Positions 11,624-18,161 of a stretch of 60,250 bases of DNA are shown here, piece by piece. Where the stretch lies: assembly GCA_018003015.1 (NCBI GenBank), contig JAGNEZ010000039.1, positions 1 to 60,250 on the forward strand, read 5' to 3'. How positions within the stretch are numbered: the stretch's first letter is position 1; each line of letters opens with the position of its first letter. The notes under the pieces were generated by a model. The model searched no databases, was not told the DNA's origin, and was given only the letters and a program-made list of their open reading frames with translations. The position numbers were made by a program, and so were the translations under genes. The stretch is from Phycisphaerae bacterium (GTDB taxonomy: Bacteria > Planctomycetota > Phycisphaerae > UBA1845 > PWPN01).

Positions 11624-13189
11624 GTGTTCGTTCCGCGTACGGATTTGGTGTCGTCGATTCAGTCAAGGATTGCCGGACGAATCGGGCCGCAGAAGTACAG
11701 AATCTGGTTCAAGAACGGCACGCAACTGACGGCGGCGGGCGGCCATCTGAAGGTCAGCACGCCAAACACGTTTATCTGCAACTGGATCGAACGGCACTAT
11801 GCTGAGGATATCGGGATCGCTGCCCGCGAGGCGGGAGGCCAGGACTTTGAGGTGTCCTTTGTCGTCGATCCCAAGCTGCAGCAGGATCTCAAGAAGCGGC
11901 AGCTAAACTCCCAGGCGGAGTTCATCGCTAAGAACCCCGAGCGAGCGGCCAGGGAGCATCGCCTGCAAGGCTTGCAGGCCCCGTCGCGTTCAAGATCGCT
12001 GCGTGGCAGGCTCAGCGACCTGGTTGTCGGCCCGGCGAACGAACTGGCCGTTTCGGTCGTACGCCGGATCGTCGATCGGACTGCCGACTACAGCCCGATT
12101 TTCGCCCACGGCGGATGCGGCCTGGGCAAGACACACCTGTTGCAGGCCCTGGCCAATGAGTTGACCGACAAGCACCCTGAGGTCCGGTGGGAGTATCTCA
12201 CCGGCGACGAGTTCACCAACAACTTCGTGCTCGCCGTGCGCTCCAACAAGGTCGACCTGTTCCGACAGCGATATCGCCACCTGGACGTGCTCATCATCGA
12301 TGACATCCACTTTCTGGCCAACAAGAAGGCCACCCAGGAGGAGTTTCTCCACACCTTCGATGCCATCGACGGGCAACGCAAGACGGTGGTCCTGGCGTCG
12401 GACACGCACCCGAAATTGATTGGCCACTTCAGCGAGCAACTGGTCAATCGGTTTCTGGCCGGAATGGTCGTTCGGCTGGAAGTCCCCGATTTCCAGATGC
12501 GCTGCGAGATCCTCCGCCGGCGAGTGGCGATCGTGGCCGCGCATCAAGTGCCGGAGGACGTGATTGCCTACATCGCCAACCACATGAAGGCCAACGTGCG
12601 TGAACTCGAAGGGGCGTTGCTGAAGCTGGTGATGTTCCACTCCGTGTCACACCAGCCCATCACGCTGGCGCTGGCCCGCCGGGCCCTGGCCGACCACATG
12701 GAACGTACCCAACGATCTCTCAGCCTCGACGAGATCGACCAGACCGTCGCGACGTATTTCGGCCTCACCCTGGCAGATTTGCACACGTCGCGCAAGACTC
12801 GGACTATTGCCCTTGCCCGCGGGGTGGCGATGCATCTGGCTCGCAAACACACTGACCTCAGCTTCCCGGAGATCGGACGTTTCATGGGCAACAAGAACCA
12901 CTCGACGGTCATCCTGGCGAACAGGCGAATCGCCAAAGACCTCGAGGAAGACAAGACCGTCACCCGACAGACGTCGGCCGGTGCGAAAGAAGAGCGGTTA
13001 CGGGAGATCGTCACCCGGCTCGAAGAGCAGCTCGGCCTGGCTTCCCGGGCCAATCGCGAGCCAAATGAAAGCCCGGCGGCGGGCGCGTCCCCCCTGACCA
13101 CGTCGGCTTATGGATCCTCCTTGATTTCGACATGTCGCCATGAGCCCTCGCCGAGCGGCTTGGGTGACGCCCGCGTTGCGGTGGGATGA
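11624..13189 (+). CDS. dnaA: Chromosomal replication initiator protein DnaA
   Basis: A 521-residue AAA+ initiator that binds DnaA boxes and melts the origin. Domain I spans ~1-85 (Q-x-x-I-x-x...KYRIWF). A short domain II follows. Domain III has Walker A GGCGLGKT (163-170), Walker B LIIDDIHF (223-230) and the NRF arginine-finger region. The helix-turn-helix domain IV (~365-460) ends in MGNKNHSTVI, matching the DnaA signature GGRDHTTV. The usual phenylalanine-rich 'F-x-x-FVVGPSN' entry is altered to LSDLVVGPANELA. About 60 extra residues after domain IV are Ser/Pro-rich and unlike other DnaA ends. The GTG start has AGGAG six bases upstream. dnaN, recF and gyrB are not adjacent. Confidence 0.95.
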   Translation: MFVPRTDLVSSIQSRIAGRIGPQKYRIWFKNGTQLTAAGGHLKVSTPNTFICNWIERHYAEDIGIAAREAGGQDFEVSFVVDPKLQQDLKKRQLNSQAEFIAKNPERAAREHRLQGLQAPSRSRSLRGRLSDLVVGPANELAVSVVRRIVDRTADYSPIFAHGGCGLGKTHLLQALANELTDKHPEVRWEYLTGDEFTNNFVLAVRSNKVDLFRQRYRHLDVLIIDDIHFLANKKATQEEFLHTFDAIDGQRKTVVLASDTHPKLIGHFSEQLVNRFLAGMVVRLEVPDFQMRCEILRRRVAIVAAHQVPEDVIAYIANHMKANVRELEGALLKLVMFHSVSHQPITLALARRALADHMERTQRSLSLDEIDQTVATYFGLTLADLHTSRKTRTIALARGVAMHLARKHTDLSFPEIGRFMGNKNHSTVILANRRIAKDLEEDKTVTRQTSAGAKEERLREIVTRLEEQLGLASRANREPNESPAAGASPLTTSAYGSSLISTCRHEPSPSGLGDARVAVG

Positions 13190-13492
13190 GCGAGGGTGCT
13201 GGCACGGATCACCCCATTCTGACCGCGGATGGCGCCTACAGCGTCGAGCCTGCTCCACACCGTCGAGTCAACAGGCCTGGCCCTTGGAACGAAAAGACCC
13301 CCCCGAGCCCCGCCCAGCCGATCATACCAAGAAGGGGAGGCCCTTGACACCCAGGGCTTGAAGGACGACCACAGGTGAGGTACGTTTCTGCTCCGGGTGC
13401 GGCCGCAGATCCAGGCGGCCAGGGTCTTCGCCGCACGTTACTGTCTGCCGCGGCGCGTGCCGTGGTGACGAGTCATTGAAAAGGAGTTCACG
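13190..13492. other. Intergenic, no gene seen
   Basis: Between dnaA and the 56-residue lipoprotein no frame has both a ribosome site and a recognisable product. A TTGACA occurs at about 13343 but lacks a matching -10. Confidence 0.4.
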
Positions 13493-13663
13493 ATGAAGCT
13501 GTTTTCCCGTATCCAGAGACTGGCGATGATGGCGGCCATGGGTTGCGTGTTCGCCTCCGGCGGCTGCCTGCCGGCGCACGCCTGGGCGGAGCTGGGCAAC
13601 AACGTCGTCAACCAGGTTGTGGCCGCGTTGGTGGCGTTCGGTTTGGCCCAGGCTGGGCTGTAA
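13493..13663 (+). CDS. Very short lipoprotein, 56 residues
   Basis: AAAGGAG precedes an ATG at 13493 and the frame runs to TAA at 13661. A basic N-terminus (MKLFSRIQR) and hydrophobic core end in a lipobox ASGGC at Cys25. The mature peptide is only ~31 residues: an amphipathic/hydrophobic helix with ELGNNVVNQVVAALVAFGL. It resembles another short product in this window (53452-53568). The stop codon is the first base triplet of a tandem hairpin repeat that carries the ribosome site of the porin-like gene, so the two genes are probably one mRNA. Function unknown. Confidence 0.65.
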   Translation: MKLFSRIQRLAMMAAMGCVFASGGCLPAHAWAELGNNVVNQVVAALVAFGLAQAGL

Positions 13664-13698
13664 CCTCCCGACAGGAGGATAACCTCCTGAAAGGAGGA
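13661..13698 (+). promoter_or_regulatory. Tandem Shine-Dalgarno-sequestering hairpins
   Basis: Two adjacent 19-base units, TAACCTCCCGACAGGAGGA (13661-13679) and TAACCTCCTGAAAGGAGGA (13680-13698), differ at two bases. Each pairs CCTCC with GGAGG around a small loop, so each hides a strong ribosome site against an anti-Shine-Dalgarno-like CCTCC. The second GGAGG ends four bases before the ATG at 13702. Confidence 0.6.
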
Positions 13699-13701
13699 CA
13701 C

Positions 13702-14781
13702 ATGCTGCGCGAACATCACGCACCGAAGGCCGGCGTGGCCTGGCTGGTGGCCCTGGCGGCGTTTCCGGTTGCCTCGTCGTTGGCCGCGGCCGGCCAGACC
13801 AAGGCCATCGAGCTCAACCCCGCCCAGCTCGTTTCCGATGAGTTCGCCAAGGACACGAGAGCCGCCCAGCCGGACGAACCGATCGCCACGCGAACCGAGG
13901 TCCAGAAGACCGAGGCTGCCGAGGAGGCGATCCCGATCGAGATCGGCATCACCTACTACCTGCTCAGCGATTACGTGTGGCGCGGATTCAATCTGTCCGA
14001 GCCGGCCCGCGAAGGACGCGAACGGCTCAACCACCAGGTGTCCGTCGAGATCACCTGGGATACCGGCAGCTTCGGCAAAATCGGTTTCGACACCTTCTTC
14101 GAATGGTTCGAGGCCCAGAAAGCCCTCAACCCCTTCGGCGGTGGCCAAAACCTGCAGGAAGCCGACTACACCGTCCGGTGGGGTTACGACCTCGAGCCCG
14201 TCAAGACGGAGGTGACCCTCGGGTATTCGTTTTACGCCTATCCGAACCTGGCCAGACTGTTGAGGTCGGACGACCGCGTCGGAAACGACAATGACGATCT
14301 CTACATGGAATGGTGGCTGAAGCTGGTCCACAATGACGCCTGGATGTGGAAATGGCTGCTGTCCCAGAACGAGGAGCCCGTGCTGACGCCCTCATTCTTC
14401 TTAGCCCAGGACGTAGGGGTCGGCTGTGGTGGTGTCTGGTTGGAGTTCGGCATCAGCCACGAGTTCGCCATTCCGGGCATCGACAACCTGACCATCACAC
14501 CGGGCTACACGCTGGGGGTGGATGGCGGCGTGGTCAAGCGGTACTTGTGGAAGGACAACGCCAACACGTTGCGGCTGGCCTGTCAGCAGTTCGCATTGGA
14601 CGTGACCTACGACCTCACTGCGGTGCTCAATCTCCCCAAATGGGCAGGGACCCTGAGCGTTTCCGGTCTGCTGTACTTCGCCGACGCCCTGGGGACCGCG
14701 GAGCGGTCCGACAGCGTTCACGGCGATATTCAGGACGAGTTCTACGGCGGCATGTCGGTGAACTGGGGCTGGGGCGGCTGA
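13702..14781 (+). CDS. Putative outer-membrane porin, TorF/Gcw_chp-like
   Basis: A 359-residue exported protein with a signal peptide (core LVALAAFPVASSLAAAG). From ~residue 75 there are alternating aromatic strands typical of a beta-barrel. The hallmark YYLLSDYVWRGFNLS is close to the SDYVFRGxS pattern of the Gcw_chp/TorF putative porin family. Glycine-rich turns and W/Y/F pairs continue to the C-terminus, which ends in VNWGWGG rather than a terminal Phe. Translation is likely governed by the tandem hairpins just before its ATG, and it is coupled to the small lipoprotein upstream. A terminator follows. What it transports is unknown. Confidence 0.75.
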   Translation: MLREHHAPKAGVAWLVALAAFPVASSLAAAGQTKAIELNPAQLVSDEFAKDTRAAQPDEPIATRTEVQKTEAAEEAIPIEIGITYYLLSDYVWRGFNLSEPAREGRERLNHQVSVEITWDTGSFGKIGFDTFFEWFEAQKALNPFGGGQNLQEADYTVRWGYDLEPVKTEVTLGYSFYAYPNLARLLRSDDRVGNDNDDLYMEWWLKLVHNDAWMWKWLLSQNEEPVLTPSFFLAQDVGVGCGGVWLEFGISHEFAIPGIDNLTITPGYTLGVDGGVVKRYLWKDNANTLRLACQQFALDVTYDLTAVLNLPKWAGTLSVSGLLYFADALGTAERSDSVHGDIQDEFYGGMSVNWGWGG

Positions 14782-17969: not shown

Positions 17970-18071
17970 TTACTTCTTGGCTTTCTTCTTCGCGACTTTC
18001 TTCTTCGCGACTTTCTTCTTCGCGACCTTCTTCTTGGCGACTTTCTTCTTCGCGGCTTTCTTCTTAGCCAT
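17970..18071 (-). CDS. Histone H1-like AKKK-repeat peptide, 33 residues
   Basis: A complete micro-gene: AGGAG eight bases before ATG (18071) and TAA at 17970. The product is MAKKK, then AAKKK, then four VAKKK units, then AKK: 20 lysines in 33 residues and no acidic residue. Lysine/alanine pentapeptide repeats of this sort form the DNA-binding tails of bacterial histone H1-like proteins (Hc1/Hc2, AlgP-like, mycobacterial HupB tails). Here the whole protein is just the tail. The 15-base DNA repeats make length change by slippage likely. It has its own promoter (18133-18161) and terminator (17911-17942). Predicted role: electrostatic nucleoid or RNA binding. Confidence 0.75.
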   Translation of the reverse strand: MAKKKAAKKKVAKKKVAKKKVAKKKVAKKKAKK

Positions 18072-18132
18072 GACACGTTCTCCTACAAAACGAAACCTAC
18101 CATCCCGCGTGACGCAAACGGGATTCACGTGC

Positions 18133-18161
18133 AAATTAACGAGCGATCAGCGCCGAGTCAA
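18133..18161 (-). promoter_or_regulatory. Candidate promoter of the lysine-repeat gene
   Basis: Minus-strand TTGACT (18156-18161), 17-bp spacer, TAATTT (18133-18138), giving a leader of ~55 bases. The -10 is weak. Poly-T/A runs (18167-18190) lie just upstream and could act as an UP element. Confidence 0.4.

Follow-up and report, generated by a model that had tools for sequence, protein, structure and literature searches.

What does a doubled hairpin do between a small open reading frame (ORF) and a porin-like gene, when each of its units holds both a Shine-Dalgarno (SD) sequence and the complement of that sequence? The first-pass annotation of this locus proposed that the element makes translation of the porin depend on translation of the small ORF. 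We have examined this proposal by computation, using as the window a stretch of 60,250 nucleotides from a Phycisphaerae bacterium (contig JAGNEZ010000039.1, assembly GCA_018003015.1) and the corresponding loci of related genomes. Both genes of the pair and the element between them lie on the forward (+) strand.

Anatomy of the doubled hairpin

The element occupies 44 bases (13661–13704), which read TAACCTCCCGACAGGAGGA TAACCTCCTGAAAGGAGGA CAC ATG. It is built from two tandem 19-nt units, each of the form CCTCC-N5-GGAGG and identical at 17 of 19 positions, in agreement with the first description of the site. Unit 1 (13661–13679) comprises the TAA stop codon of the small ORF (13661–13663), which also provides the first bases of the unit, followed by CCTCC (13664–13668, segment 1), a loop and GGAGG (13674–13678, segment 2). 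Unit 2 (13680–13698) carries CCTCC (13683–13687, segment 3), the loop TGAAA and GGAGG (13693–13697, segment 4). The repeat thus opens with the stop codon of the 56-codon ORF and ends at 13698, just 5' of the porin ATG at 13702, as had been noted. Segment 4 is the porin SD and lies 4 nt 5' of this ATG; the stop-to-start spacer measures 38 nt.

The doubled hairpin is a local element. The pattern CCTCCN5GGAGG was found twice in the window compared with 0.15 expected, a count of two being reached in 0 of 100 shuffles. The 6.86-Mb genome as a whole has 11 occurrences, two of them at 13661–13704, compared with six for a reversed control. A dispersed, REP-like repeat is ruled out by these counts and by the tandem unit, which is present at the window site only. 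Of the 11 genomic places, this is also the only one where the pattern overlies an SD at normal distance from a plausible start. None of the Rfam covariance models matched the window at its gathering score. Elsewhere in the genome of the window (G000), a gene candidate with a perfect 7-bp SD hairpin (GCCTCC...GGAGGC) was observed at C3 (L124 7601–9070), with an uncertain TTG start.

A conserved small ORF and barrel gene pair

The upstream member of the pair is a small ORF of 56 codons (13493–13663), with an SD of its own, AGGAG within AAAAGGAGTTCACG (13482–13486), that lies outside the repeat units. Its product has a signal-like N-terminus and an invariant Cys25. The homologues (~55–68 codons) share a charged hydrophobic N-terminus and the invariant cysteine, which sits in the sequence C-(L/V)-P-(D/N)-N-F-W or a close variant of it. 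The designation of this product as a tiny lipoprotein stands in part: every one of 20 homologues has the cysteine, yet that residue does not lie in a strict lipobox, and 11 of the 20 fit a relaxed one. The small protein is probably a lipoprotein, and no Pfam or NCBIfam model matches it. Since the small ORFs of G000 and of its same-genus sister genome, G001, differ by eight nucleotides but by one amino acid, the ORF is, judged by this pattern, under constraint at the protein level, and it looks more like a conserved secreted protein than a stall peptide. Within the family there are one or two copies of the small protein per genome.

The downstream gene (13702–14781) encodes a protein of 359 amino acids. 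Its AlphaFold model, with a mean pLDDT of 70 and poor before residue 74, resembles outer-membrane barrels with Z scores of about 15–16 (FapF, KdgM and others). This fold comparison supports its identification as a porin-like outer-membrane β barrel, which upholds the original porin call at the level of the fold. No specific porin family is claimed, because many outer-membrane barrels give near-tied Z scores; the window barrel has no match in Pfam or NCBIfam. Of the 114 genomes of the order, 24 have a homologue of the barrel, and a species-level genome set has homologues at 14 loci, mostly in MAGs of Planctomycetota or Phycisphaerae. Most of the homologues have a small ORF 5' of them on the same strand. 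On this distribution of homologues, the pairing of a small Cys-containing protein with a barrel gene is old and order-wide.

In the window's genus, dnaA (11624–13189 in the window) lies directly 5' of the pair; in G007 (C24, L020), the slot after dnaA holds a small ORF and a different barrel-like gene. The window's genome has another member of the small-ORF family (G000:C43:36783–36947, L018), which precedes a different, probably outer-membrane barrel gene. By inspection, the C43 copy and the G007 copy are each followed by a large ORF resembling an outer-membrane protein of another family. In G053 (C229, L039), the ORF 5' of the barrel homologue has no signal-like N-terminus and is similar to the small protein in its mature part only (MFPEDFFAGLADNW...).

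The hairpin in related genomes

A stem score of at least 5 over the SD was obtained for 9 of the module's 11 barrel genes in the family and for 9 of ~169 other SD-bearing genes (Fisher p ~5e-9; ~4e-7 when the sister genome and one GU-rich case are left out), the background being drawn from ~0.8 Mb of family genomes with a simple ORF picker, such that some of its genes or starts may be spurious. The pattern CCTCCN5GGAGG itself covers the SD of the module genes of G000, G001, G004, G006 and G008. Elsewhere in the family the hairpin is single: CCTCCTGAAAGGAGG in G008, CCTCCGGAAAGGAGG in G006, CCTCCAGGAAGGAGG in G004, AGATCTTCTGAAAGGAGGTCT with two G-U pairs in G003, and CCCTCGAAAGGAGGG in a shifted register in G002. 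The SD stem of G005 is different and G-U-rich, and among the 11 family barrel genes those of G009 and G007 showed no SD hairpin. Outside the family, a comparable SD stem was found for 1 of 13 SD-bearing homologues, and this one is G-U-rich. The non-orthologous barrel-like gene on C43 has an unrelated 8-bp stem over AGGAG, CTCCTTTG CTT CAGAGGAG; here a different sequence gives the same folding outcome, which suggests that the structure matters and not the sequence. Covariation in the family hairpin did not go beyond shuffles (covariation score, 134/500), as is expected when one arm has to remain an SD and the other alone is free to vary. Taken as sequence comparisons, these data show that a predicted SD hairpin on the gene pair is conserved within the family and specific to the module.

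The arrangement seen in the window is more recent. In relatives the SD lies 81–117 nt past the small-ORF stop, in a family spacer of 91–127 nt versus 38 nt in the window's genus. The alignments show the shortened spacer, the hairpin abutting the stop codon and the doubling to be specific, as far as the two genomes indicate, to this genus. Spacer shortening likely came before tandem duplication, since unit 2 has its own TAA in G000. Both units are kept in G001, where a 41-nt stretch differs from G000 at four positions (one loop base, two between the units and one before the ATG) and all 20 CCTCC/GGAGG arm positions are unchanged; this invariance is weak evidence (~0.08 by chance), because two genomes are compared whose neutral divergence is about 9–19% at silent and noncoding sites. 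The first-pass annotation had named absence of the repeat in relatives as a refutation; the repeat is present in the sister genome, the one relative of the same genus that was compared, and elsewhere in the family there is one SD hairpin.

Predicted folding of the element

The RNA of 13640–13730 folds with −35.9 kcal/mol (z −3.2 versus dinucleotide shuffles). By computed energies, the four segments can pair as 1:2 plus 3:4, as 2:3, or as 1:4 plus 2:3. The last of these, a single nested hairpin (13664–13697) with CCUCC1:GGAGG2 as the outer and GGAGG1:CCUCC2 as the inner stem, is the predicted minimum-free-energy fold and ground state of the RNA. For the 44-nt core, the nested form was computed at −21.0 kcal/mol versus −15.9 kcal/mol for two hairpins in G000, and at −24.0 versus −16.8 kcal/mol in G001. 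The two units were originally described as folding independently; they can, but in both same-genus genomes the nested hairpin is favoured by 5–7 kcal/mol. The alternate pairing between units, mentioned there as a possible switch, is in fact this predicted ground state.

In the minimum-energy fold the porin SD is buried, with a predicted opening cost of 8.2–10.3 kcal/mol. This cost does not by itself single out the module, because other pairing also hides SDs and genes without a local stem score high as well (8.0 kcal/mol in G009, and several background genes); the discriminating measure is the local stem score. An RNA thermometer was considered and rejected: at 60 °C the fused hairpin was still computed at about −13 to −15 kcal/mol (−3.8 kcal/mol for a single hairpin), so that melting by an ordinary temperature change is unlikely and none is predicted in the physiological range. 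The folds and ribosome effects refer to 25–37 °C and standard parameters, which may not correspond to the growth temperature of the organism.

A modelled ribosome at the stop codon

To model a ribosome whose A site holds the TAA, we kept unpaired the bases from 16 upstream of the first base of the stop to 9–13 after it. Under this mask the computed cost of opening the porin SD falls from 8.2 to 1.6–2.1 kcal/mol in G000 and from 10.3 to 2.7–2.9 kcal/mol in G001, and in the remaining structure segments 2 and 3 form a hairpin and segment 4 is left open. In this thermodynamic model, the claim that a terminating ribosome would open the hairpins is sustained in its outcome, with a drop of 6–8 kcal/mol, but not in its proposed manner: two independent hairpins would leave the one over the true SD closed, and only hairpin 1 would be opened. 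Opening is predicted to work through the nested, relay-like pairing, because CCUCC2 stays paired with GGAGG1 as long as the ribosome sits on CCUCC1. The earlier remark on a switch is closer to the mark than the picture of independent hairpins.

The outcome depends on the footprint. The relay is obtained with a mask extending to +8 to +12, but beyond +13 segment 3 is released, hairpin 2 re-forms and the SD is recaptured. With a mask to +9, no comparable fall was computed for the relatives with orthologous barrels: five shifted by less than 1 kcal/mol, G005 went from 7.3 to 6.0 kcal/mol and G002 from 2.1 to 3.8 kcal/mol, and the masked cost in these relatives, G002 excepted, is 5.3–7.3 kcal/mol. 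The paralogous C43 gene fell from 3.3 to 0.8 kcal/mol, from a low starting cost. When one unit was removed in silico, the cost fell from 8.6 to 1.1 kcal/mol, with the SD at +13, beside or under the terminating ribosome.

Proposed mechanism and alternatives

Based on the above data, we propose that a family-conserved SD-sequestering hairpin was moved to the stop codon and doubled in the window's genus, where its relay would tie the porin to translation of the small ORF, a proposal to which we give about an even chance. In RNA free of ribosomes, the porin SD (segment 4) would be buried against segment 1 in the long nested hairpin. A ribosome terminating on the small ORF would cover segment 1 (about 13661–13673), and the 2:3 pairing would persist, leaving segment 3 unable to recapture segment 4. 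The porin SD would then be open to a fresh 30S subunit with the first ribosome still on the stop codon, and synthesis of the porin would depend on translation of its small partner. With the duplication, the SD lies at +32 and the ATG at +41 (counting from the stop's first base), which would give room for two ribosomes; with one unit (SD at +13) both would hardly fit. It is plausible on this modelling that translation of the small ORF helps to switch on the porin in the window's genus. A more specific reading, which we offer tentatively and would not favour, is that the doubling made a stand-alone brake into a four-segment relay sensing ordinary upstream termination, with one copy acting as spacer and decoy so that two ribosomes find room, an evolutionary path to translational coupling.

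Termination-reinitiation is unlikely as a route, there being no overlap or very short gap but 38 nt between stop and start. A gap of about 20 nt nearly abolishes reinitiation (PMC10666635), so that unfolding would be the sole workable route at this distance. Coupling through RNA unfolding by upstream translation is established in other systems (review PMC12548453); however, strong structure just 3' of a stop is reported to correlate with poorer coupling (PMC12548453), which counts against the relay, as does the short distance of 4 nt between SD and ATG.

A broader form of the first-pass proposal is that coupling of the two genes is what the hairpin is for. On our modelling this cannot be its ancestral role, because the SD of relatives lies at least 81 nt past the stop, beyond the reach of a terminating ribosome, which leaves their single hairpin untouched, and no such drop was computed; there the hairpin presumably does no more than tune or regulate initiation of the porin. 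This is the ground for the alternative we take most seriously, possible though on the whole unlikely, in which the hairpin alone limits or regulates porin initiation (by tuning, a small RNA or a protein), translation of the small ORF is irrelevant and the duplication simply makes the hold tighter. Relatives do keep an SD hairpin where coupling is neither expected nor computed. In the window's genus, however, the fused hairpin is, at −21 to −24 kcal/mol, so stable that hardly any porin would be produced unless something opened it, and the stop codon is part of the element in both genomes.

It is improbable that the role of the fused hairpin is instead to shield or define the 3' end of the small-ORF mRNA, through processing or stability, thereby setting unequal amounts of the two proteins, with the SD overlap being secondary. 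In favour of this reading, the genus has lost the longer, often GC-rich spacer of most relatives, although folds of the pre-SD spacer in relatives showed no excess over shuffles; the part conserved in the family is the SD hairpin and not a stop-codon hairpin. A chance tandem duplication by slippage, functionless in itself, would suit the two genomes and modest divergence at hand, but the parent hairpin is apparently selected in the family. Neutrality of the duplication is very improbable, because it is retained in both genomes with intact arms and occludes the start of a conserved gene. Least credible is that the palindromes, 15 bp long and repeated at a 19-bp spacing, are DNA operators bound by a regulator of barrel-gene transcription, as they sit on the SD across the family, the G003, G002 and C43 variants keep the RNA pairing (by G-U pairs or a shifted register) and not the DNA word, and 38 nt leaves little room for a promoter.

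Relation to known systems

The doubled hairpin varies a type of translational control that is already known; its placement and copy number are new at the level of the genus and the SD hairpin is old. Short stems over an SD near a start are known from SD-occluding hairpins and RNA thermometers; the window shares the short SD stem, but its stem is GC-rich and stable in the fused form at 60 °C. In attenuation of the ermC type, a ribosome masks segment 1, the 2:3 hairpin forms and the SD in segment 4 is freed. The proposed relay shares these three steps but has no stalling peptide, drug or known inducer (background on ermC-type translational attenuation is given in PMC5118997).

The closest topology is that demonstrated for the intergenic control of mgtQ-mgtB in Salmonella, 1:2/3:4 versus 2:3 (PMC8092293). 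Shared are four segments with exclusive 1:2 plus 3:4 or 2:3 pairing, which our computed energies also give for the window, a segment 4 that is the downstream SD, and a short upstream ORF. In mgtQ-mgtB, however, this ORF is a very short regulatory one and the signal is ribosome destabilisation, whereas the upstream ORF of the window encodes a conserved protein, and ordinary termination would serve as the signal. The four segments of the window, in addition, come from one repeat present twice and have a nested 1:4 pairing open to them.

Among examples of RNA-unfolding coupling are M13 gene VII-IX, rpmI-rplT and MS2 coat-lysis (review PMC12548453). With these the window shares close, co-oriented genes and a downstream SD in a structure that, as predicted here, a ribosome on the upstream gene can open: by computation the SD is buried, and the upstream ribosome, represented by its footprint, reaches and opens the structure. 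It differs in that the ribosome would be at the stop and the SD, as computed, would be freed indirectly through the pairing of two tandem copies.

If the relay is real, coupling could arise by a simple evolutionary step, the shortening of a spacer followed by doubling of an existing SD hairpin. It would also tie an uncharacterised, order-wide small protein to outer-membrane barrels of planctomycetes, and would allow unfolding-type coupling to be tested in a compact system at 38 nt, where reinitiation should fail.

Elsewhere in the window, a short ORF on the reverse strand (17970–18134, −) ends in AKKKV repeats, similar to the lysine-rich tails of the histone H1 type.
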